Assembly (NCBI GenBank): GCA_947458455.1
Contig: CANGYJ010000009.1
Coordinates: 62,001-126,000, forward strand
Reading direction: 5' to 3'
Source of the DNA: Verrucomicrobiaceae bacterium
GTDB taxonomy: Bacteria > Verrucomicrobiota > Verrucomicrobiia > Verrucomicrobiales > Verrucomicrobiaceae
DNA length: 64,000 bases
Under the pieces are notes generated by a model that worked only from the letters and a program-made list of their open reading frames with translations, did no database searches and was not told where the DNA came from. This document shows positions 14,454 through 27,788 of the stretch, piece by piece (the first letter of the stretch is position 1; each line of letters opens with the position of its first letter). The position numbers and the translations under genes were made by a program.

Positions 14454-14463
14454 GGTGGACCAA

Positions 14464-14492
14464 GCCGGGACTTGGCAAGTCCCGCTCCTTGA
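14464..14492 (-). repeat. Solitary REP unit of the RAYT-associated family
   Basis: One inverted copy (GCCGGGACTTGGCAAGTCCC followed by GCTCCTTGAA) of the same REP that flanks the RAYT 2 kb upstream. It sits between the Uma2 stop and the tgt start and is outside both genes. Confidence 0.88.
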
Positions 14493-14508
14493 ACGAGCAC
14501 ATGACCTG

Positions 14509-16173
14509 ATGCCTCCCTCCCGTCTCGATTTTCAACTGCAAGCGCGTGCCAGCGGCTCGCGGGCGCGTGCAGCGGCGTTTCGGACGCTGCATGGCGTGAT
14601 TCAGACACCGCTGTTCATGCCGGTGGGCACGCAGGCGACGGTGAAGGCACAGACGCCGGAGTCGCTGGCAGCATCGGGATCGCAGATTTTGCTGGCGAAC
14701 ACCTACCACCTGCTGCTGCGGCCGGGATCGGAGGTGTTTGAGAAGATGGGCGGCATTCATCGCTTCATGAAATGGCCCGGCTCGGTGCTCACGGACTCGG
14801 GCGGCTACCAGATCTTCTCGCTGCCGCACTCGCGGTCGATGACGGAGAAGGGCGCGGTGTTTCAAAGCTATGTCGATAACCGCCGCATCCTGCTGAGCCC
14901 TGAGCTGAGCATCCAGACGCAGCGCAGCATTGGCAGCGACATCATGATGGTACTCGACCAGTGCATCCCGAGCACGGCGGATGAAAAAACGGCGCGGAAG
15001 GCTCTTCAAGTCACGCAACGCTGGGCGGCACGCAGTCTCGCGGCACGCGAGGACTCGCCACAATCGCTCTTCGCCATCGTGCAGGGGGCGCTGTATCCTC
15101 ATCTGCGGAAAGAGAGCGCCGCCGGACTGGTGACGATGCCGTTCGATGGCTTCGCCATTGGCGGACTGGCGGTGGGCGAGGAAAAACATCAGCGCGAGGA
15201 TGTGTGCGAGCTCACCGCCGCGCTGCTGCCGGAGGATCGTCCGCGTTATTTGATGGGCGTGGGCATGCCGATTGACCTGCTGGAAGCGGTGCATCGCGGG
15301 ATGGACATGTTTGACTGCATCATCCCCACGCAGGTGGCGAGGCGCGGCACCGCTTTCACCTCGCGCGGCATCGTCGAGCTGCGGCGCAGCGTTTATAAAT
15401 TCACTGATGCACCGCTGGATGCCGCCTGCTCCTGTCCGGTGTGCGCCACGCACTCGCGGGCGTATTTGCATCATCTCACGAAGACGCAGGAGACACTCGG
15501 CTGGACACTCATCGGCCAGCACAACATCCACTTCTACCACCAGCTCATGCGTGAGATCCGCACGAGCATTCTCGAAGATCGCTTCCTGCCGCTCTATCAC
15601 GAGAAGCGGGCCATCCTGGCCGAGGAGGACCTCGATCATCCGGTGAAGCCCCCGAAGCGCGGTCAAAGCGCCACGGTGAATGAAATCGGCTGCTACGAGC
15701 TTCATGGTTCCTCGATTCGCCATCTCGAAACGGGTGCGGTGGTGCCGACGGAGATCCGCGAGGAGCTTCCTGAACTCATTCGCCTGCTCAAAGCCAAGGG
15801 CGATGCGCCGCTGGTGGTTTGGGATGAAGGCCTTGGCGCTGGTGCGGCGGCTTTGTCCGCCATTCTCGCTTATGAAGCGCTAGCGCAAAAGCAGGCCGTG
15901 AGGCCGATGCATATCGTAAGCATTGCCAATGATCTCGATGCACTGCGACTCGCTTTGAGCCACAAGAAAATCTTTGGATGGCTACGTCATGGGGCGGCGG
16001 ATACGCTGATGCATCGCGGAGCCTGGAAATCGCGTTTTTGCCCAGGCTTGAGCTGGAGCCTCGCGAAGGATGCAGAAGCTCCGAAGCCGGATTTGGTGCT
16101 GCGGACGTTCCAGATAGCCACCAAGCATGATGCACCAGTGATTGATTGGTTACCCCTCGCTCTTGATTACTGA
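14509..16173 (+). CDS. tgt: tRNA-guanine transglycosylase fused to an MnmC-like C-terminal domain
   Basis: Residues 1 to about 375 are a complete bacterial Tgt, which swaps G34 of GUN-anticodon tRNAs for the queuosine precursor preQ1. The substrate-binding TDSGGYQIFSL has Asp96, followed by FAIGGLAVGE, MFDCIIPTQVARRG with the nucleophilic Asp, and the zinc site CSCPVC...H. Bacterial Tgt normally ends near 375-380, but this protein has 554 residues. The extra 170 contain VVWDEGLGAGAAALSAIL and HIVSIANDLDALRLAL, resembling the SAM-binding fold of the MnmC2/DUF752 tRNA methyltransferases. Both parts would act on anticodon position 34. ATG 14509 follows a REP unit. Confidence 0.9.
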   Translation: MPPSRLDFQLQARASGSRARAAAFRTLHGVIQTPLFMPVGTQATVKAQTPESLAASGSQILLANTYHLLLRPGSEVFEKMGGIHRFMKWPGSVLTDSGGYQIFSLPHSRSMTEKGAVFQSYVDNRRILLSPELSIQTQRSIGSDIMMVLDQCIPSTADEKTARKALQVTQRWAARSLAAREDSPQSLFAIVQGALYPHLRKESAAGLVTMPFDGFAIGGLAVGEEKHQREDVCELTAALLPEDRPRYLMGVGMPIDLLEAVHRGMDMFDCIIPTQVARRGTAFTSRGIVELRRSVYKFTDAPLDAACSCPVCATHSRAYLHHLTKTQETLGWTLIGQHNIHFYHQLMREIRTSILEDRFLPLYHEKRAILAEEDLDHPVKPPKRGQSATVNEIGCYELHGSSIRHLETGAVVPTEIREELPELIRLLKAKGDAPLVVWDEGLGAGAAALSAILAYEALAQKQAVRPMHIVSIANDLDALRLALSHKKIFGWLRHGAADTLMHRGAWKSRFCPGLSWSLAKDAEAPKPDLVLRTFQIATKHDAPVIDWLPLALDY

Positions 16174-18834: not shown

Positions 18835-19170
18835 TCAGATTTCGCCGAAGTGTTTTTCGCGCACGTCCACGATGGCATTGAGCATCGTTTCGGCTTCGCC
18901 ACGGACCTTCGCGTCGAGGCTGCTGGCGCTGCGGTTGAAGCGGCGGTAGAGGAGCTTCAATTGGGCGCGGATCTCATCCTTGCTCATCTTCGGCGTGATC
19001 TCGCAGAGTTCCTCGGGCGTTTTCACTTTGGCCGGAGCCGCAGGGGCGGCGTTGCCTTTGGCGACTTGGTTGAGCACACCGCCTTTGGGGGCCTCGGCCG
19101 GCTTTTTGACCTCGGTAGCGGGCTTGTGACCGGTGAGGGACTTGGAGAGGGATTTGAGGATCTTGAACAT
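18835..19170 (-). CDS. Small helical protein of the Hsp70/FHA locus
   Basis: 111-aa protein of unknown function, 34 bp downstream of the lidless Hsp70 gene and almost certainly in its operon. The N-terminal 45 residues are Lys/Ala/Pro-rich and disordered. The C-terminal 60 are predicted helical (LCEITPKMSKDEIRAQLKLL, a turn, then a long helix ending REKHFGEI). Spacing and pattern resemble helices I-III of a J domain, but the essential HPD is replaced by FNR, so a degenerate J-like adaptor is only a hypothesis. The initiating ATG is at 19170. Confidence 0.75.
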   Translation of the reverse strand: MFKILKSLSKSLTGHKPATEVKKPAEAPKGGVLNQVAKGNAAPAAPAKVKTPEELCEITPKMSKDEIRAQLKLLYRRFNRSASSLDAKVRGEAETMLNAIVDVREKHFGEI

Positions 19171-19204
19171 AAATGGCGTGATTTGAGGTTCCTGAGTCCT
19201 GGGG

Positions 19205-20695
19205 TCATTCGATGCGCATCGCTCGCAGATGGGCGCTGCGGCGTTTGAGTTCCTCGTCGCTCAAAACGCCAGCCCCCTTGTAGCTGACGGCGACTTCTTT
19301 GCTGCGGCCGGATTGCTTATCGACGATGAGGGCGCGGACGCGCTGGTTTTCGTCGTAGCTGAAGGTCACGGCGATCTCGCAGCCCTTCGGACGGCCGGCG
19401 GGCACGTCAAGGGTGATGCGGCCGATGACATCGACGTATTTCGCATCGGGGTCCTCGCCTTGGGTGATGTCCACCTCGATGATGCGCTCGTTGTCCTCGC
19501 TCGTCTGATACACCTGCGTGCGGGAGCAGGGGATGGGCGTGTTCTTCGGGATGACGATGGAGTTCATGAGCTTCTCCTCCTTCGTCTTGGCGTTGTAAAC
19601 CATCGCCAGGGTGCCGTAGCTGGCATTGCAGACCTCCTGAATCTTGGCGGACTTCTTGGCGAAGAGCGCCGCGCCGAGGGCGACGCATTCATCGACGTTG
19701 CCGCAGCTCTTGGGCACCTTGCCGAACATCTTTTCGAGGATGACCTTCACCTTTGGAATGCGGGTGGAGCCGCCGACGAGCACGACGTGGTCGATGTCGC
19801 TCGTTTTGAGCTTCGCGGAGTCCAGCGCCTGCTCCACGAGGAAGACGGTGCGCGTGAGCATGTTGCGGATGAGTTTCTCAAAGTGCTCGCGGGAGAGATC
19901 GATGCGGGCAATGCCGGAGTTTTGATCGTTGGCGACGGTGTCGTTCACGCGTTGGAGCTTCGAGAGCATCTTCTTGGCGTCTTCCGTGGCCTGGAGCACG
20001 CGGCGGCGATGGCGCTCATCGGAGAAAAGCGCCGCGCCGGTCTGCTTTTTGTACTGCTCGGCGTAAGCATCAAGGAGGATATCGTCAAAATTGCTGCCGC
20101 CGAGGTGGCGGGCGCCTTCGGAGGTGAGGATCTTGATGTTATCGCCCTCGACTTCGAGGATCGTGGTGTCCAGCGTGCCGCCACCCAGGTCATAGACGAG
20201 GATGCGGCCCTTCACGCCCTGCGAGTGGGCGTAATACACGGCGGCAGCGGTCGGCTCGTTCACGAGGCGCTTCACCTTCATGCCGGCCATTTCGGCGGCG
20301 GCGATGGTGCTTTTGCGGGCAAGTTCGTTGAAGTTCGCGGGCACGGTGATGACCACATCGGTGATGTCTCCACAGATTTTGGAGCAGTCACGCTTCAGCT
20401 TGGAAAGGATGAGCGCCGAAATTTCAGCGGGCGTCCACTTCTTGCCGTCGATCTCCACGAGATGCTCGGGATCGTCCATGTGGCGCTTGATCTGGAAGAT
20501 CGTGCGGTCCGGCTCACCGCCATCGCGTGCAGCGCTGCCGACGAGCTTCACATCCTCATGCGAATCGAAAAAGACGACGGAGGGCGTGAGGCGCTCGCCA
20601 TCGGAATTCGGGACGATTTCTGGATTACCGTCCGGCTTCAGGTAGGCCAAGCCCGAGAGGGTCGTGCCGAGGTCGATGCCAACGTATTCAGCCAT
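19205..20695 (-). CDS. Hsp70/DnaK-like ATPase lacking the C-terminal lid
   Basis: 496-aa Hsp70. The nucleotide-binding domain is complete: GIDLGTT (6-12), DLGGGTLDTT (169-178) and VVLVGGSTRIPK (304-315). A beta-sandwich substrate domain follows (about 360-475; IPKNTPIPCSRTQVYQTSED and the GRITLDVPAG segment). The protein stops just after LSDEELKRR, where DnaK begins its helical lid, so about 140 residues are missing. The hydrophobic interdomain linker (DVLLLDV in DnaK) is replaced by IQEVCNASYGTL, suggesting altered allostery. It lies between the giant FHA/GrpE-like gene and the 111-aa gene on one strand. This is a specialised paralogue, not the housekeeping DnaK. Confidence 0.93.
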   Translation of the reverse strand: MAEYVGIDLGTTLSGLAYLKPDGNPEIVPNSDGERLTPSVVFFDSHEDVKLVGSAARDGGEPDRTIFQIKRHMDDPEHLVEIDGKKWTPAEISALILSKLKRDCSKICGDITDVVITVPANFNELARKSTIAAAEMAGMKVKRLVNEPTAAAVYYAHSQGVKGRILVYDLGGGTLDTTILEVEGDNIKILTSEGARHLGGSNFDDILLDAYAEQYKKQTGAALFSDERHRRRVLQATEDAKKMLSKLQRVNDTVANDQNSGIARIDLSREHFEKLIRNMLTRTVFLVEQALDSAKLKTSDIDHVVLVGGSTRIPKVKVILEKMFGKVPKSCGNVDECVALGAALFAKKSAKIQEVCNASYGTLAMVYNAKTKEEKLMNSIVIPKNTPIPCSRTQVYQTSEDNERIIEVDITQGEDPDAKYVDVIGRITLDVPAGRPKGCEIAVTFSYDENQRVRALIVDKQSGRSKEVAVSYKGAGVLSDEELKRRSAHLRAMRIE

Positions 20696-20738
20696 AGGAG
20701 TGCGGGGAGTGAAGGGTCTGGGAGAAAGCGGGGTGGGG

Positions 20739-20870
20739 AATGACGAAGGACGAATTCAGAATGACGAATGAATGACGAAGCCGGAAGGGCGGCGAGAGGC
20801 GTTGGAGAGTGTTTTCATGGCATTCGGGTTTAGGATTTAATTCGTCATTCTGAATTCGGCATTCGTCATT
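20739..20870. repeat. 31-bp inverted repeat between the FHA and Hsp70 genes
   Basis: Arms 20739-20769 (AATGACGAAGGACGAATTCA...) and 20840-20870 (...TGAATTCGGCATTCGTCATT) are complementary with about three mismatches and enclose 70 bases. The second arm overlaps the last codons of the 20866-26853 gene. It could form a large stem in the mRNA between the two genes. The ATTCGTCATTCTGA core recurs at 55212, so this is a dispersed element. Confidence 0.85.
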
Positions 20871-23800
20871 GACTGGAAGTCCGGACTTCGACCTTCCGCA
20901 GGATTACCTCATGTCCCTCGGCACGCGAGTAAACAAATCCGGTGCGGCAGCTTTCGACGACGCGGGGTTTGTTCTTGCCGGGCGTGCTGTCCACCACGGC
21001 GATGCGCTTGCGCAGCTCGACATCGACTTCCGTGCCGGAGGCGACCTCGAACTCGTTCACACCGTGCTGGAACAGGATGTCCTCAAAGCTCTGCCGCAGC
21101 GTGTGGAGCTGCGTGACGATGTCCACGCCGCCATTCACACCGGCGTAGCGTTCCTTCAGCGCGTCGATGAGGTCGATGCGCTTGATCAGATCGTTGGCGA
21201 ACATGATCACAGTCGATTCGTCCGTGCCGAGGCCACGGCGGAGGATTTCGTGCTTCTCTTCCAGCTCGCCGAGCTGGCCGCGGAGGCGTTTTTCGATCTC
21301 CTGCCAGTGCTTGAGCTGCGCCTCGGCCTGAGCCATCTCGCTGCGCTTCTCGTCGAGGCGCACAAGCTCGGCCTTCGTCTGCTCAATCTGGGTGACGATG
21401 CGGGCTTCGGCGGCGGCGTGGTCGTTGATGCGCTTCTCCAGCTCGGCGATGCGCTTCTTCTGCTCCACCTCGTAGTTTTGAAGCGTGGAGGCCTGCTTCT
21501 GGATATCGCTGCTGAACTGCTTGAACTCCGCCTCGGCGGCCTCGCGGTCCTTGCGGGCCTGCTCGGCACGCGTCGTCTCGCGGTTGAGGGTTTCCTGGGC
21601 AGCATTGACCTTCACCTGGATGGCGAGGTCTTCTTCGGAAGCCGTGCGAATGGCCTTCGTGATCTCGTTTTGGCGTGATTCGAGGTTCGAAATAGCCTCG
21701 CCTAAGCCGAGCATCTTGCCGCCGACGTGGATGAACTCGCTGAGCCGCGTCTGGTGGCCGTCGATCTTGCCTTGCAGCTCCTTGAGCATGCTATCGGCAC
21801 CTTGGAGATCGAGCTTCTGATTATCGACGATCTTGGTGAGGCGCTCTTCGTCGGCCTTGAGATTCTGCACGCGGTCAAGGCGGGTGCGCAGCTCGTCGTC
21901 GATCGTGGCGGCTTCCTTCTTCGTGGCGGAAACTTTCGCCCGCAGGTCCTTCAATTCCTTGTCGGTATCCGCGAGGGCGGCCTCGGCGGCGCGGGTCTGC
22001 TCCTGGGCGGCTTTGAGCTTGAGGCCTTCCTTGTCCACATCCTCCTGCGCCTTCATCACCCGCTGCTGGCGGAGTTGGTGAGCCTCTTCGAGCTGCTCGA
22101 TCTGCTGCTGCAATTCGGCGAGCTTCTTGTTTTGCGTGTCCGTGGTGACGTTGAGGCGCGTGACGAATTGCGAGGCCTCATCACGCTGCTTCGTGAAGGT
22201 GGAAAGCGCGGCCTGGATGCCGGCCAGCTCGGTGGTGAGCGTGGGAATCTGCTTCCGCAGAGCCTTCTCCTCGGCGCGGGCGTTTTCGAGGCTGGCATCG
22301 GCTTCGTTGCGGGCTTTCTCGGCAGCCTGCTGGGCGGCGAGAGCCTTCTGAAGACGGGCCTCGGTATCGATGGCCTTCGTTTCGGTGGCTTTGAGCGTCT
22401 TGGAAAGGTCGGCGAGCTTGGTGGTCTCGGCTTTGAGGTCGGATTCGAGAGCCGCAAGGTCGAGGCGCAGCTTGTCCTGCTGCTTGCCGAGGGTGGCGAC
22501 GTTCTTTTCCTCGGCGGCGCGGGTCTTTTCGGCGTCCTTCAGGTTTGTCGTGGCGGCGGCGAGGCGTTCGTTGATGTCTTCGAGTTCCTTGAGTCGCGAT
22601 TCGCCGGTGGCGACGCGTTCTTGGATGCCTTTGAGGCGTGTCTCGGCCGCGTTGGCCTCGGATAGCTTGGCTTTGACTTCCGCATCCAAGGTGGAGCGTT
22701 TTTCGCCGAGCAGCTTCTCGAGGTTCGCGGACTCGATGCGCAGCGCCTCGGTGGCGGCTTCGGCTTCCTGGCGTTGTTTGACGGTCAATTGCATCGCATC
22801 GAGCGCGGCCGTTTTGTCCTTGGTGAGGGCGGCGAGCTCGTCGGCGAGGTTTTGGGCCTGCGCACGCGTTTGCTCGACCTTGCCGCGAAGATCCGGCAGC
22901 AGCGCTTCGAGATCCGTGCGCTCTTTGGTGAGGCGCTGGGCTTCGGAGGCGAGCTTGTCGCGGTTCTGCGTGGCGGCGGTAATGGTGGCGGAAAGCTCGG
23001 CGTGCTGCTTGCTGGCCTGATTGAGTTCCCCGAGGCGATCTTCGAGGCCAGCGGTCTGGCTGGTCAGCTCGGCGACGCGTTTCTCCGCAGCGACGATTTC
23101 CTTCTGCTTCGCGGCGAGGTTGTCCTGAAGGTTTTGATAATCGGACTGAGCCGCGGCCACGCTCTGCTGCGCGGTGGCGTGCGTGCTGGTGAGCGTGGCG
23201 ATGACGGCCTCCAGGCCGCTGATCTTCTCCGCGAGCGTGAGATGGTGCTGCGAATTCTTTTCCAGTGAGGCGACGGATGTGGCCAGCTCCTTCGTTTTCG
23301 CGGCGACGGAGGTGGTAAGCTCTTCCAGCTCGTTTTTGGCGGCGGCGACTTGAGCGATGAGCTTCTTGTCCTCGGCCTGCGTGGTCTTGAAGTGCGCTTC
23401 CGTCGTGGCGGCCAGTTCCTGCACATTTTGGAGGCGCTGCTCGGCGGTGGCGATTTGCGACTGACGATCGCTGAGATCAGTTTCGGCCTGTTTGATGTCC
23501 TCGCGCAGCTTGCCGAGATCGTGAGAGAGATTCGTCTGCTGATCCTCAATGGTGCGGACTTCTTTTTCGACGGCCTCGCGACGCGTGGTGAGCGTCTGGA
23601 TGAGCAAATGCTGCGCCCGGCCATGCTCGGTGGCGGCGAGAAGCTCGCGAGTGCGTTCGTCGCGGTCTTTGACGAGCGCGGCGACGGCGGCAACGACCTC
23701 CGCTTTGTGCGATTCGACGGCTTTGAGCGCCTCGTTGCGATCCTTGAGGCGTGAATCGGTTTCCGAGAGATCGGAGAGCTTGTTTTCGAGGTCGGCAGCC

Positions 23801-26800
23801 TTGTCTTCGAGGGCTTTGACCTGCGCGGCGAGATCGTTCGAGCGAGTGGTGCGCAGCTCGATTTGGAGATCGAGTTCGTCGCGTTCTTTGGTGGCGGCTT
23901 TTTGCTGCTCGGTGGCTTTGGCCTGGGCTTCGGCGGTCTGCTTTTGAAGCTCCGCCAGCTTGGCCTCGACGGCTTTTTGCATCGCGTCAAAATCGGCCTG
24001 CGCGGCATCGCGTTCCTTGCAGATGCGCTCGAACTCGCTCTTCGCGGCCTGCTGCTTCGCGTTGAAGTCATCGACCTCGGCGCGGAGCGTGGTGAGGCGC
24101 TGCTCGGAGCCGCTCACGTCTTTTTGATGCGTCGTTTGTGTGGCGAGAAGCGCGGCGATCGCCGTTTCAAGCACGCCACGCTGATCCTGCATCTGGCCGA
24201 GCTGCTTGGTGACCTCGACGAGTTTTGTTTCGCTGCCACGAAGGGCTTCCACGCGGGCTTTGAGCGCCGTTTCCTCGCCGCTGGTCTGGGCGAGGCGCTG
24301 CTGGGTATCTAGAAGCTGCTCCTGCGCTTTTTGGAACGCGGCGTTTTTGGCTTCGAGGTCGTCGGTGAGCTTGGCAAGGTCTTTGTCGAGCTTTTGAAGC
24401 TCGGCACCGCGTTTGGATTTCAACTCGGCTTCGGACTTTTCGGCCTCGGCTTTGAGTTTGGTGAGTTCGGCAAGGCGGGCTTCGCTGGTGGCGATGTCCT
24501 TCGTGAGAGTGGCGAACTTTTGCTCGGCGGACGAGGCGTTCGAGCTCCTTTGCGCTAGCGTGGTTTCGAGGGCGTTGAGATCGCTGGAGAGTTTGTCGAG
24601 CTTCGTTTGGGCGGAGGAGGCGTCCGCGCTCCGGGTGGTGATTTGCTCGGCGAGTTTCGCGGCCTCGGTTTTCTTGGCGGCGAGGTCTTTGTCGAGGACT
24701 TGAAGCTCGGCGCTGCGCTTGGTCTTCTGCTCGCCTTCGGATTTTTCGGCGTCGTTGCGGCGCTGGACGAGTTCTTTAACGCGAGCTTCAGCGACGCTGA
24801 TCTCGGCGGTGAGCTTGCTGAGCTTTTCCTCGGCGGAAGTGAGCGCGGGGAGCTTGGCTTCGAGGGTTTGGGTTTGCTCGGTGAGCTGCTTGAGCTTTGC
24901 CTCGGTGGCGGTGGCGTTTTCGCTGAGTTTGGCGAACTCGGCCTGCTTGGCGGTGAGGTTGGTTTCGAGGCCTTGGAACTCGACGGCGCGTTTTTCGCCC
25001 GCGGCGATGTCGGCGACGAGTTTGGAGAGATTGCGGCTCGCAGCGGCGGCCTCGGCCATGTTCGACGACAAGGTCGATTCGATGGCCTTTGCCTGATCGG
25101 TGAGCAGAGCGTGCTTTTTCTCGGTGGCGCTGAAGTCAGCGGTGAGCTTATCGAATTCGGCCTGCTTGGCGGTGAGCGAAGCTTCGAGGGTTTTGAGTTC
25201 GCTGCCGCGCTTGGATTGAAGCTCGGCCTCGGATTTTTCGGCGTCGGCTTTGCGAGTGGTCAGCTCGGTGAGGCGGGCTTCGGCGCTGGAGATGTCGGCG
25301 GTGAGCTTCGAGAGTTTCGTTTCAGCGGACGAGGCGTCCGCAGTCCTTTGCGCCAGTGAGGATTCGAGAGATTGAAGCTTCGCGGAGAGGTCTTTGAGTT
25401 TCGTTTCGGCGGACGAGGCGTCCGCGCTCCGGGTGGCGAGCGTGGCTTCGAGAGCTTGAAGTTCGCTGCTGCGCTTGGATTTGAGTTCCGACTCGGACTT
25501 TTCAGCATCGGCTTGGAGCTTCGTCAGCTCCGCGATGCGGGACTCGCTGGTGGCGATGTCTTTTTGGAGCGCGGCGAGCTTTTGCTCGGCGGCGGTGAGT
25601 TCCGGGAGCCGGGATTCGAGGGCTTTTGACTGGGCGGTGAGCTGCTGGAGCTTCGTTTCAGCGGACGAGGCGTCCGCGCTCCGGGCGGTGAAAAGGGCGA
25701 CGAGGGTGGCGAGTTCGGCCTGCTTTGCGGTGAGCGTCGATTCGAGGGATTGCAGCTCGCTGCTGCGCTTGGATTTGAGTTCGGACTCGGACTTTTCGGC
25801 ATCACCTTTGAGCTTTGTCAGCTCGGCGAGGCGGGCTTCGGTGGTGGCGATGTCTTTTTGAAGGGCGGCGAGCTTTTGCTCGGCGCTGGCGGTATCGGTG
25901 GCTCGCTTGACCTCGGCGGCGGTGTGGATGCTTTCGAGGGCTTTTTGCGCGGTGGCGAGGTCGGCCTCGCTCTTGGTGACGAGGGTGCGGGTGGAATCGA
26001 GCTTGCTCTCGATGTTGCCGAGATCGCGGCGCTTCTGGTCAAACTTGGCGGCTTCGGCTTGGGCGTTTTCCACCTCGGCGCGGGCGTTTTGCACCTGCTG
26101 GCGGAGCGTTTCGGACTCGGACTTGAAGCCGGCGAGGCTGGCCTGGGACTCCGTGAGTTCTTTTTTGCGGACTTCGAGCGTGGCCTCCAGGCTGCGGAGT
26201 TCGTCGCGGCGGCGCTGCTCGACTTCGGCCTCGATTTTCAGGGCGTCACGCTGCTGGCGGAGCTTGTCGATCTCGTCGCGGAGATCAGCGGCCTGTTTCG
26301 CGGCGGCGGCGGGATCGGGCTTCGGAATGAGTGAGGGCGGTGGCGCGGCAGGAGACTTCTGCGAATCGCCGGTGGAGGAGGCCATGCGATGCACGACCGG
26401 TTTCGTCGGCTCGACCTTGCCGGTATCCGGCGAAGGCGGCGGCGTATCGTCTTTGTCACGGGCGGGAATGCCCTCGGTATCGCCACGGCGGCCGTCGATG
26501 CGCGGCGGCTCGTTTTTGGTGGCGACGGCTTTGGAGGCACCGACGGGGGCGAGGCCCTTGGGTGCTCGCTCGCGGAAGCGGCTCTCCAATTGGCCGAACA
26601 TGATGCGATCCCCGCCTTTCACGCGGGCCTTCTCGATGCGCTTGCCGTTGACGAAGGTGCCGTTGGAGGATTTCAGATCAACCAACTCGTAAACGCCATC
26701 CGGCTGCTTCAGGAACTCGGCGTGGAAGCCGGAGATGAAGGTGTTGTCGATGACGATGTCGTTTTTGGCGTCACGACCGATGGAGAGGCGGTCTTCGAGC

Positions 26801-26853
26801 ACATCGAAGACGAATTCGTTACCATCGTTGAGATTGAAGGCCAGGTACGGCAT
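20866..26853 (-). CDS. Giant FHA / coiled-coil protein with C-terminal GrpE-like domain
   Basis: 1,995 aa. An N-terminal FHA domain (about 1-95) has SIGRDAKNDIVIDN, SGFHAEF and SSNGTFVNG, the loops that bind phosphothreonine. A Pro-rich linker (about 95-185) is followed by roughly 1,650 residues of Glu/Lys/Ala/Leu-rich coiled coil, which between about 320 and 870 is built of repeated modules (SADASSAETKL; AEKSESELKSKRSSELQ). The last 130 residues match GrpE: a helix MFANDLIKRIDLIDAL, then LRQSFEDILFQHGVNEFE, and a beta domain with VVESCRTGFVYS and EVILRKVEVRTS. GrpE is the Hsp70 nucleotide-exchange factor, and an Hsp70 gene follows 170 bp downstream. There is no signal peptide or membrane segment. 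Confidence 0.92.
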   Translation of the reverse strand: MPYLAFNLNDGNEFVFDVLEDRLSIGRDAKNDIVIDNTFISGFHAEFLKQPDGVYELVDLKSSNGTFVNGKRIEKARVKGGDRIMFGQLESRFRERAPKGLAPVGASKAVATKNEPPRIDGRRGDTEGIPARDKDDTPPPSPDTGKVEPTKPVVHRMASSTGDSQKSPAAPPPSLIPKPDPAAAAKQAADLRDEIDKLRQQRDALKIEAEVEQRRRDELRSLEATLEVRKKELTESQASLAGFKSESETLRQQVQNARAEVENAQAEAAKFDQKRRDLGNIESKLDSTRTLVTKSEADLATAQKALESIHTAAEVKRATDTASAEQKLAALQKDIATTEARLAELTKLKGDAEKSESELKSKRSSELQSLESTLTAKQAELATLVALFTARSADASSAETKLQQLTAQSKALESRLPELTAAEQKLAALQKDIATSESRIAELTKLQADAEKSESELKSKRSSELQALEATLATRSADASSAETKLKDLSAKLQSLESSLAQRTADASSAETKLSKLTADISSAEARLTELTTRKADAEKSEAELQSKRGSELKTLEASLTAKQAEFDKLTADFSATEKKHALLTDQAKAIESTLSSNMAEAAAASRNLSKLVADIAAGEKRAVEFQGLETNLTAKQAEFAKLSENATATEAKLKQLTEQTQTLEAKLPALTSAEEKLSKLTAEISVAEARVKELVQRRNDAEKSEGEQKTKRSAELQVLDKDLAAKKTEAAKLAEQITTRSADASSAQTKLDKLSSDLNALETTLAQRSSNASSAEQKFATLTKDIATSEARLAELTKLKAEAEKSEAELKSKRGAELQKLDKDLAKLTDDLEAKNAAFQKAQEQLLDTQQRLAQTSGEETALKARVEALRGSETKLVEVTKQLGQMQDQRGVLETAIAALLATQTTHQKDVSGSEQRLTTLRAEVDDFNAKQQAAKSEFERICKERDAAQADFDAMQKAVEAKLAELQKQTAEAQAKATEQQKAATKERDELDLQIELRTTRSNDLAAQVKALEDKAADLENKLSDLSETDSRLKDRNEALKAVESHKAEVVAAVAALVKDRDERTRELLAATEHGRAQHLLIQTLTTRREAVEKEVRTIEDQQTNLSHDLGKLREDIKQAETDLSDRQSQIATAEQRLQNVQELAATTEAHFKTTQAEDKKLIAQVAAAKNELEELTTSVAAKTKELATSVASLEKNSQHHLTLAEKISGLEAVIATLTSTHATAQQSVAAAQSDYQNLQDNLAAKQKEIVAAEKRVAELTSQTAGLEDRLGELNQASKQHAELSATITAATQNRDKLASEAQRLTKERTDLEALLPDLRGKVEQTRAQAQNLADELAALTKDKTAALDAMQLTVKQRQEAEAATEALRIESANLEKLLGEKRSTLDAEVKAKLSEANAAETRLKGIQERVATGESRLKELEDINERLAAATTNLKDAEKTRAAEEKNVATLGKQQDKLRLDLAALESDLKAETTKLADLSKTLKATETKAIDTEARLQKALAAQQAAEKARNEADASLENARAEEKALRKQIPTLTTELAGIQAALSTFTKQRDEASQFVTRLNVTTDTQNKKLAELQQQIEQLEEAHQLRQQRVMKAQEDVDKEGLKLKAAQEQTRAAEAALADTDKELKDLRAKVSATKKEAATIDDELRTRLDRVQNLKADEERLTKIVDNQKLDLQGADSMLKELQGKIDGHQTRLSEFIHVGGKMLGLGEAISNLESRQNEITKAIRTASEEDLAIQVKVNAAQETLNRETTRAEQARKDREAAEAEFKQFSSDIQKQASTLQNYEVEQKKRIAELEKRINDHAAAEARIVTQIEQTKAELVRLDEKRSEMAQAEAQLKHWQEIEKRLRGQLGELEEKHEILRRGLGTDESTVIMFANDLIKRIDLIDALKERYAGVNGGVDIVTQLHTLRQSFEDILFQHGVNEFEVASGTEVDVELRKRIAVVDSTPGKNKPRVVESCRTGFVYSRAEGHEVILRKVEVRTSSQ
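24527..25677. repeat. REP-like palindromes recurring inside the coiled-coil gene
   Basis: The 17-bp palindrome GCGGACGAGGCGTCCGC (stem GCGGAC, loop GAGGC) occurs exactly at 25325-25341, 25409-25425 and 25661-25677, with one mismatch at 24611-24627 and in degraded form near 24527. On the coding strand each gives the peptide SADAS within a module of the coiled coil. The surrounding DNA is also repeated (GTTTCGGCGGACGAGG and similar), so the modules may have spread by duplication together with the palindrome. Confidence 0.8.
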
Positions 26854-27011: not shown

Positions 27012-27788
27012 ATGACCACGAAAAGTTACACACGTGAATTCTGGCTTCTCACCTTGGCCGGGGCGACTTTTCTGCTCGGCTGCGCCGCTCCCCTGCCCAC
27101 GGCGCAGGCCGGTTTGACCTCGGCGCAGATGAACCGCGTGGGCCAGCGCATCTGGCAAAACGAGTGCGCTGGCAGCGTGGCCGGCCTGACGAGCTGGAAC
27201 GGCGGCGAGGATTTCGCGTCGCTGGGCATCGGCCATTTCATCTGGTATCCGGCCGGACGGCGCGGGCCGTTCGAGGAGAGTTTTCCCGGCCTCGTGAGGC
27301 ATCTGGAGGCTCGCGGCGTGCCGATGCCGGGCTGGACCAAAGGCGCGTGCGCCTGGAACTCGAAGGCGGTCTTTGACGCCGACAAAAATAGCCCGCGACA
27401 GGCCGAACTGCGCAAGGTCCTCGCCGCGAATGTGGGCCTGCAAACCGAGTACATCATGCTGCGGCTCCAGCGTGCTGCTGGCAGCATGACCGGCGCGGCG
27501 AAGAGCGGTTTCGCGTCTATGAACACGACGCCGGAGGGCATGTTTTGCCTGATCGACTATGTGAATTTCAAAGGCGAGGGCACGAACCCCAAGGAACGCT
27601 ATCGCGGCCAAGGCTGGGGCCTCATGCAGGTGCTCGAAGACATGCGCGGCGGCACGCCCGCCGCCTTCGCCGAAGCCTCCAAACGCGTCCTCAGCCGCCG
27701 TGTGGCGAATTCTCCCCCTGAACGCGGCGAACAGCGCTGGCTGGCTGGGTGGCATAACCGCTGTGAGGCGTATAAGAGGCCGCTGTGA
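27012..27788 (+). CDS. Exported lipoprotein of a conserved NEC/GIGHFIWYP family
   Basis: 258-aa protein with a signal peptide and lipobox (LLGC, Cys24), so a lipoprotein. The core IWQNECAGSVAGLTSWNGGE and SLGIGHFIWYP (about 48-80) is a strongly patterned motif that I know only from conserved exported proteins of uncharacterised function. An acidic residue (Glu51) followed by Gly-rich turns recalls lysozyme-like folds, but I cannot establish this. The C-terminal half contains RYRGQGWGLMQVLEDM and WLAGWHNRCEAY. It is divergent from the giant FHA gene, with 158 bp between starts, and is followed by a sulfatase gene 59 bp downstream. Confidence 0.8.
   Translation: MTTKSYTREFWLLTLAGATFLLGCAAPLPTAQAGLTSAQMNRVGQRIWQNECAGSVAGLTSWNGGEDFASLGIGHFIWYPAGRRGPFEESFPGLVRHLEARGVPMPGWTKGACAWNSKAVFDADKNSPRQAELRKVLAANVGLQTEYIMLRLQRAAGSMTGAAKSGFASMNTTPEGMFCLIDYVNFKGEGTNPKERYRGQGWGLMQVLEDMRGGTPAAFAEASKRVLSRRVANSPPERGEQRWLAGWHNRCEAYKRPL

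Follow-up and report, generated by a model that had tools for sequence, protein, structure and literature searches.

A 64,000-nucleotide stretch of a Verrucomicrobiaceae genome of 5.35 Mb (GenBank assembly GCA_947458455.1, contig CANGYJ010000009.1, positions 62,001 to 126,000, hereafter the window; G000:C9:62001-126000 in the numbering used here) carries three genes that run in one direction on the minus strand. According to the list of open reading frames, they encode, in this order, a protein of 1,995 amino acids (aa) with an N-terminal FHA domain, a coiled-coil rod and a C-terminal GrpE domain, an Hsp70 of 496 aa without the helical lid, and a small protein of 111 aa, with gaps of 170 bp between the first two genes and 34 bp between the last two. 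The domains, their conservation, the linkage of the genes and the absence of the lid, the usual linker and the HPD motif were computed here, and the favoured reading, which is given slightly better than even weight, is a dedicated Hsp70 cycle in which the exchange factor has a phospho-address and a J-like protein lacking HPD acts as partner at the membrane. The initial annotation of this DNA had described the three co-directional genes and proposed a dedicated Hsp70 machine; its sequence observation as a whole was confirmed, and its interpretation as a whole was partly supported.

The identity of the two ends of the large protein was established by profile and structure comparisons. The FHA domain scores 72.1 bits in Pfam (cut-off 20.7), and its core residues G26, R27, S41, H44, N64 and N69, which in this family bind phosphothreonine, are each conserved in 50-55 of 55 homologues with both ends in one frame. 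These homologues were drawn from 61 stretches (the window and 60 fetched), with the omission of six: L045, L055 and L071, which are truncated at contig ends, and L050, L076 and L081, whose frames are broken or split. The GrpE domain passes the Pfam cut-off of 25.8 bits both within the whole protein (28.1 bits) and as the tail alone (31.6 bits), in agreement with the annotated order of FHA domain, coiled coil and GrpE-like region. The NCBIfam GrpE models matched the protein weakly (best E 0.012, under the equivalog cut-off), and a phmmer search of PDB chains with the lone tail as query did not find GrpE. A profile built from 41 tails recovered E. coli GrpE in 1dkg (E 4.7e-7) as well as 4ani (E 9e-4). 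Moreover, when the AlphaFold2 monomer model of the tail (mean predicted local distance difference test score, pLDDT, 91.6) was compared with the PDB, the first seven matches were all GrpE chains (E 1.4e-5 to 5.6e-3, six of them at 0.001 or below), the next row stood at E 0.25, and nothing besides GrpE was significant. Both checks of the C-terminus thus bear out its annotation as GrpE-like. The template modelling scores of 0.44-0.55 and root-mean-square deviations of 14-17 Å against these chains indicate that the placement of the beta domain relative to the long helix differs.

Between the two ends lies a region with a hydrophobic period of 3.5 residues over its full length (z 14 versus 60 shuffles), although only 14 of 59 sections pass at the 1% level when taken singly. 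It has four prolines among its 1,640 residues and matches the coils of SMC, Rad50 and crescentin. Canonical GrpE dimers have paired long N-terminal helices, so that the rod reads as a GrpE stalk made longer. At an alpha-helical rise of 0.1485 nm per residue, the 1,640-residue rod would measure about 240 nm if it formed one straight rod, but the length of more than 200 nm considered earlier is not conserved: the whole protein ranges from 276 to 2,388 aa among the 55 homologues, and the near-rodless forms of 276 and 294 aa retain both FHA and GrpE. Thus, the FHA and GrpE ends are constant across the homologues and the rod length is variable. As a source of rod growth, tandem repeats were represented in the window's gene by just two short arrays. 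In eight stretches from genomes of the same genus (L046, L049, L050, L052, L053, L054, L057 and L058), another FHA protein, of only 214-279 aa, is encoded just upstream of the FHA-GrpE gene, as checked by Pfam on L049 alone.

Judged by its sequence, the second protein of the trio is a member of the Hsp70 superfamily and not a canonical DnaK, the usual linker and lid being gone. Its Pfam match (349.5 bits versus a cut-off of 20.6) covers profile positions 2-509 of 599 and stops at residue 485, shortly after which the protein ends, and the residues of the ATPase motifs are invariant in all 24 aligned members. The site of DnaK's VLLLDVTP linker, which is found unchanged in the source genome's own DnaK, is occupied by EVCNASYG. 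Among 65 distinct full-length Hsp70s of this kind, all have a linker of the form [VI][CA]Nxx[YF]G (the VCNxxYG type) and none the LLLDVTP type, all end exactly 143 residues past the start of the linker motif, and all lack the helical lid (SBD-alpha), so that the missing lid and replaced linker noted earlier hold for all 65. The same linker motif occurs in three relatives outside Verrucomicrobiales. The residue before NEPTAAA, as aligned to that of a DnaK, is Arg in 65/65 and Gly in the three outside relatives; the corresponding Arg in E. coli is R167, which contacts the HPD motif.

These features also bear on the simplest alternative, namely that the trio is an ordinary accessory set of DnaK, GrpE and J stress chaperones. 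The same three roles are represented, and large genomes, that of Myxococcus for example, often have additional Hsp70s, according to one account (PMC8265645). In the source genome, a grpE gene and a J-domain gene adjoin each other on contig C2, apart from the trio, and a full-length dnaK lies on C2 and another Hsp70 gene on C21, which implies that the trio is an additional set. The lid and the usual linker are nevertheless absent from every one of the 65 Hsp70s and the HPD motif from every one of 71 small proteins, and the window's Hsp70 falls far under the NCBIfam DnaK equivalog cut-offs (368.5 versus 648 bits and 357.7 versus 822.55 bits), which makes an ordinary stress set quite improbable.

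The distribution of the three genes was examined in a sample of 141 Verrucomicrobiales genomes. The tail was matched in 77 genomes, the small protein in 70 and the lidless Hsp70 in 70 (E 1e-95; partial in G020 and G043). Presence of the Hsp70 and of the small gene is concordant in 137/141 genomes (both in 68, neither in 69), the discordant ones having the small gene only (G005 and G101) or the Hsp70 only (G051 and G055). The tail was found in 61 of the 68 genomes with both genes and in 16 of the 73 others, part of these 16 matches being weak and possibly other GrpE proteins; the co-occurrence counts are inflated by shared ancestry and are reported without a probability. The tail adjoins the Hsp70 gene in 53 of the 61 genomes (on one contig in 52, and in G121 with an Hsp70 that begins next to the tail and is cut by the contig end), and the two lie on different contigs, both kept, in the other eight (G079, G128, G087, G113, G024, G032, G004 and G062). 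The Hsp70 and FHA genes are thus mostly linked, in favour of the annotated association. In the 61 tail-anchored stretches, the Hsp70 was present in 47 and the small gene in 46, and the gap between the FHA-GrpE and Hsp70 genes was less than 110 bp in 37 of 45 stretches measured, with two overlaps that may reflect the choice of start codon.

A scan of a contig collection yielded 54 loci, titled Verrucomicrobia, Verrucomicrobiales, Verrucomicrobiaceae, Prosthecobacter, Brevifollis, Verrucomicrobium and Akkermansia among others; it used a single peptide pattern and therefore cannot speak to absence outside Verrucomicrobiales. In all 54 loci, the gene immediately upstream of the small gene gave an Hsp70 match (including partial and broken copies and L156, where one frame carries both proteins). 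The tail was matched in 45 loci and FHA in 39, part of the stretches being incomplete. A phylum-wide search for the tail matched 12/337 genomes, seven of them strongly and all of these in the window's family; the five weak matches fell in frames of 202-245 aa, the size of an ordinary GrpE. The corresponding Hsp70 search (E 1e-95) matched 11/337 genomes, comprising seven of the window's family, relatives in G368 and G302, and two frames of 648 and 673 aa that look canonical by length. In the small-genome genus f2 g10 (2.2-3.5 Mb), no genome was among the tail, small-gene or Hsp70 matches. All carriers but one have a single copy of the trio. As separate observations, the pair of Hsp70 and small gene occurs twice in G023 (contigs C79 and C99), a metagenome contig titled Akkermansia muciniphila (L113) carries the whole trio and perhaps comes from a misnamed assembly, and in L076 and L155 (G043) an Hsp70 gene in pieces with an internal stop lies beside a short GrpE frame, as a decaying copy or an assembly error.

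Several results weigh against a dedicated cycle, and some of them would fit better with an FHA protein that is mainly a structural rod or scaffold, with its GrpE end serving as a docking site or dimer cap without exchange and the Hsp70 working separately. The lidless Hsp70 is missing from 14/61 tail-anchored stretches (for some of which it sits elsewhere in the genome), and FHA-GrpE is kept without the lidless Hsp70 or the small gene in at least G049 and G006 (single contigs) and G131, all three of which also have an ordinary GrpE. Conversely, the tail was not detected in 7/68 genomes with the Hsp70 and small gene, and in L157 and L158, from two genomes, an FHA-coil protein without detectable GrpE is encoded upstream of the Hsp70. 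In addition, conservation is lower in the tail (27-94% identity to that of the window, 41 rows) than in the Hsp70 (62-96%, 24 rows), the row sets being different, and the wide variation in rod length and the matches to SMC, Rad50 and crescentin coils could also be expected of a scaffold. On the other hand, the almost rodless forms retain both end domains, two loci outside the order have a GrpE-like gene without FHA upstream of related Hsp70s, and G134, R148, K149 and V152 of the tail are invariant in 41 rows. Taken together, a mainly structural role appears unlikely. FHA-GrpE stands beside its own lidless Hsp70, as annotated, but its presence without this Hsp70 in several genomes weakens the idea of a strict partnership. 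In G049, a GrpE-family match (50.4 bits; G049:C1:899466-899876) adjoins another Hsp70 of 591 aa (C1:899931).

The third protein is probably a membrane-held, J-like partner without an HPD motif. Its first 12 residues are amphipathic (mean hydrophobic moment 0.61 versus 0.30 when shuffled, 46 members; 83% of the members lie above the 90% level of their own shuffles), and they are not helical in the AlphaFold model. The C-terminal half consists of a short helix and a hairpin (residues 52-55, 64-82 and 87-108; pLDDT 85-93 for the hairpin block), and the rest of the model is of low confidence, so that the description of a helical protein applies to residues 52-108 and not to the whole chain. The HPD motif is absent from all of 71 distinct small proteins, and Asn is found at the matching spot in 70 of them. 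Twelve of the first 20 Foldseek titles for the hairpin are J-domain or DnaJ, and VIA ranks 1-4 are J-domain proteins (Z 5.7-6.1), one of which is taken to be P58(IPK). When profiles were aligned by hhalign, the helix I-II register was kept and the invariant Asn fell on the histidine of HPD; the probability against J-domains fetched from the same family was 2.9%, rising to 7.5% in local mode once the outside relatives had been added (reversed controls 0.2-0.7%), and was 0.34% in global mode (reversed controls 0.02-0.04%).

The same data leave considerable room, somewhat short of an even chance, for an alternative in which the small protein is a helical-hairpin adaptor without kinship to J-domains, the remaining model being unchanged. 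The best Foldseek match has E 0.58 and none reaches 0.001; the hairpins of ribosomal proteins (VIA Z 5.7), presumably of the L29 type, and designed and other hairpins (Z 5.5) score near the J-domains, so that the fold match alone decides nothing; and the hhalign probabilities leave the J-like fold weak on its own. Besides the missing HPD motif, a Pfam scan of 27 small proteins at E 5 gave 23 families, none in more than three members and DnaJ not among them, and the sole match of a PDB profile search with the small proteins was an unconvincing chain at E 0.063. The helix I-II register, for which the reversed controls score lower, and the domain context of the relatives outside the order point instead to a J origin, and the latter is the stronger argument compared with the fold match. 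The relative at locus L224 has a hydrophobic N-terminus, TerB (46.7 bits) and then a terminal hairpin domain (22.5 bits, whole protein), which is the order of E. coli DjlA, where TerB (62-170) is followed by a C-terminal J-domain (DnaJ, 208-267). The relative at L225 has a hydrophobic N-terminus and the hairpin domain (35.4 bits) at its end without a TerB match. DjlA differs from the window's protein in its recognisable J-domain, whereas the latter has neither an HPD motif nor a TerB match in Pfam; the DjlA-type layout is therefore not that of the window protein, and TerB occurs in L224 only of the two outside relatives.

Both outside loci also inform the origin of the trio. L224 and L225 each have a GrpE-like gene, a lidless Hsp70 gene (two in tandem in L224) and the gene for the hairpin protein with the hydrophobic N-terminus, and their gene order matches that of the window; their GrpE-like genes score under the Pfam cut-off (E 5.5e-4 and 0.01) and have no FHA match. 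Because these loci have the three genes without FHA, the Hsp70, the hairpin protein and GrpE seem, from the genes of these two loci, to form the older unit, to which FHA and the rod would have been added in Verrucomicrobiales. An M48-family peptidase gene (L224:2843-4000, minus strand) lies downstream of the relative trio.

The surroundings of the trio were searched for a client or a kinase, and the outcome counts against the favoured reading. No kinase is encoded on contig C9; the 16 Ser/Thr-kinase matches (E 1e-10) lie elsewhere in the source genome and count in its favour. Neighbours beyond the trio are not widely common: a total of 743 frames, taken from the window and 58 of 77 fetched stretches (59 stretches, 24 genus groups), were clustered, and the 22 most widespread clusters were inspected and judged by eye. 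The widest cluster outside the trio, frames antisense to it excepted, is restricted to the window's family, where it spans six genus groups, and the next spans five, all of family f3. A defence or conflict module of the GAP1-N2 kind with HSP70 and GrpE has also been considered, since in the part of its description available (PMC7159879) a subset of GAP1-N2 systems joins a J-domain fusion to HSP70 and GrpE, and a second HSP70 without the peptide-binding domain is present in some. Such a role is highly improbable for the trio, given that no extra gene is found around it in more than six of the 24 genus groups, that it is single-copy in nearly all carriers, and that PADLOC matches are confined to the coil of the FHA-rod-GrpE protein, with none in the Hsp70 or the small protein.

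Comparison with known systems places the trio beside several Hsp70 machines without equating it with any. It shares the ATPase motifs, the beta substrate domain and the GrpE fold with canonical DnaK/GrpE, and differs from it in the lack of a lid, the other linker and the placement of GrpE on an FHA rod. Mitochondrial Hsp70 is likewise canonical. Together with Pam16/Pam18 and Mge1, as far as the system is described in the accessible sections of PMC12953747, it nevertheless resembles the trio in having an exchange factor and an HPD-less J-like regulator at the membrane, since Pam16 is J-like without HPD and restrains the stimulation by Pam18. Pam16 is partnered with a true J protein, Pam18, whereas the trio encodes no HPD partner. 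In M. xanthus, SglK (MXAN_6671) is a second Hsp70 that is not heat-induced and acts in social motility and development, by the available text of two papers (PMC8265645, PMC10313047), and a second GrpE, GrpS (MXAN_6672), is encoded at the next locus tag, as in the trio. Compared by these descriptions, SglK differs from the trio's Hsp70 in restoring growth of an E. coli dnaK mutant, and for GrpS the main text of PMC10313047 names a GrpE domain alone and does not mention FHA. The GAP1-N2 neighbourhoods, in which HSP70 and GrpE accompany a protein with a fused DnaJ domain or TPRs, are similar in their components, but they are mainly from actinobacteria and firmicutes, are GTPase-centred, and have no FHA-rod-GrpE fusion in the portion of PMC7159879 at hand, by which they are set apart. 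Thus, Hsp70-GrpE pairs outside the stress set, such as SglK/GrpS and those of GAP1-N2 systems, are already known, whereas neither an FHA-rod-GrpE fusion nor an Hsp70 family without lid and usual linker and with an HPD-less partner was found in the open-licence literature searched, in line with the earlier remark that the architecture has no described counterpart.

The mechanism proposed for the dedicated cycle comprises ADP release, phosphopeptide binding, dimerization, membrane binding and J-type docking, all of which are inferred. The Hsp70 would bind and hydrolyse ATP through its normal ATPase domain and would use the retained beta substrate domain, and the GrpE domain would dock on the ATPase domain and reset the Hsp70 through ADP release. 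The coiled coil is probably dimeric, with FHA at the N-terminal tips and GrpE at the C-terminal end, and the tips would select the place of action via a phosphothreonine mark set by a kinase of the genome, so that exchange would be located at a threonine-phosphorylated partner. The small protein may be an adaptor that derives from a J-domain, lacks HPD and is attached to the membrane through its amphipathic N-terminus, which in divergent relatives appears to be replaced by a hydrophobic, probably transmembrane segment, and it might position or regulate the Hsp70 there without classical J stimulation, somewhat like Pam16. With the small protein at the membrane and GrpE bound through FHA, the machine would act between the membrane and a phospho-marked partner. 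A more speculative version, which is considered rather doubtful, would make the trio a rewired motor, in which both sides of the canonical J-to-linker switch have been remade (an invariant Asn at about the place of the HPD histidine and VCNxxYG for VLLLDVTP), the rate is set by phosphorylation that recruits the exchange factor on a rod of adjustable length and not by a classical J protein, and the motor acts, by pulling or remodelling, between the membrane and a remote phospho-site.

Table 1. Coordinates of the trio and its domains in the window
Feature	Position	Strand	Basis
FHA - coiled-coil rod - GrpE protein, 1,995 aa	20866..26853	-	
FHA domain, residues 24-87	26593..26784	-	Pfam
Coiled-coil rod, approximately residues 191-1830	21364..26283	-	heptad periodicity
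GrpE domain, residues 1832-1975, helices and beta domain	20929..21360	-	Pfam, tail profile, AlphaFold2 model
Lidless Hsp70 of 496 aa with ATPase and beta substrate domains	19205..20695	-	Pfam
Replaced interdomain linker EVCNASYG, Hsp70 residues 354-361	19613..19636	-	
111-aa partner protein	18835..19170	-	
N-terminal amphipathic segment of the 111-aa protein, residues 1-12, possible membrane anchor	19135..19170	-	hydrophobic moment
J-like helical hairpin without HPD, residues 52-108 of the 111-aa protein	18847..19017	-	AlphaFold model

Elsewhere in the window, a divergent gene beside the trio (27012-27788, plus strand) encodes a protein of 258 aa that starts with a signal-like segment and matches no Pfam family at E 0.01; the gene belongs to a cluster found near the trio in six genus groups of the same family. 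A frame for queuine tRNA-ribosyltransferase (TGT; 14455-16173, plus strand, 572 residues) has its TGT domain in residues 36-384, and the other approximately 190 residues have no Pfam match and resemble an added domain; a tRNA-Arg(tcg) call by ARAGORN (14544-14633, plus strand) overlaps the start of this frame and is probably false.

In the usual teaching, the core of the Hsp70 machine consists of the lid, the linker and the J partner's HPD motif. In this family they are gone or replaced together, with the ATPase motifs and GrpE kept, and the trio may thus provide a natural test of what the Hsp70 cycle needs. It has the look of a universal protein machine that has been rebuilt and made addressable. 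If the reading is true, it would represent a bacterial exchange factor with a phospho-address, which would tie Ser/Thr kinase signalling to the site of chaperone action.

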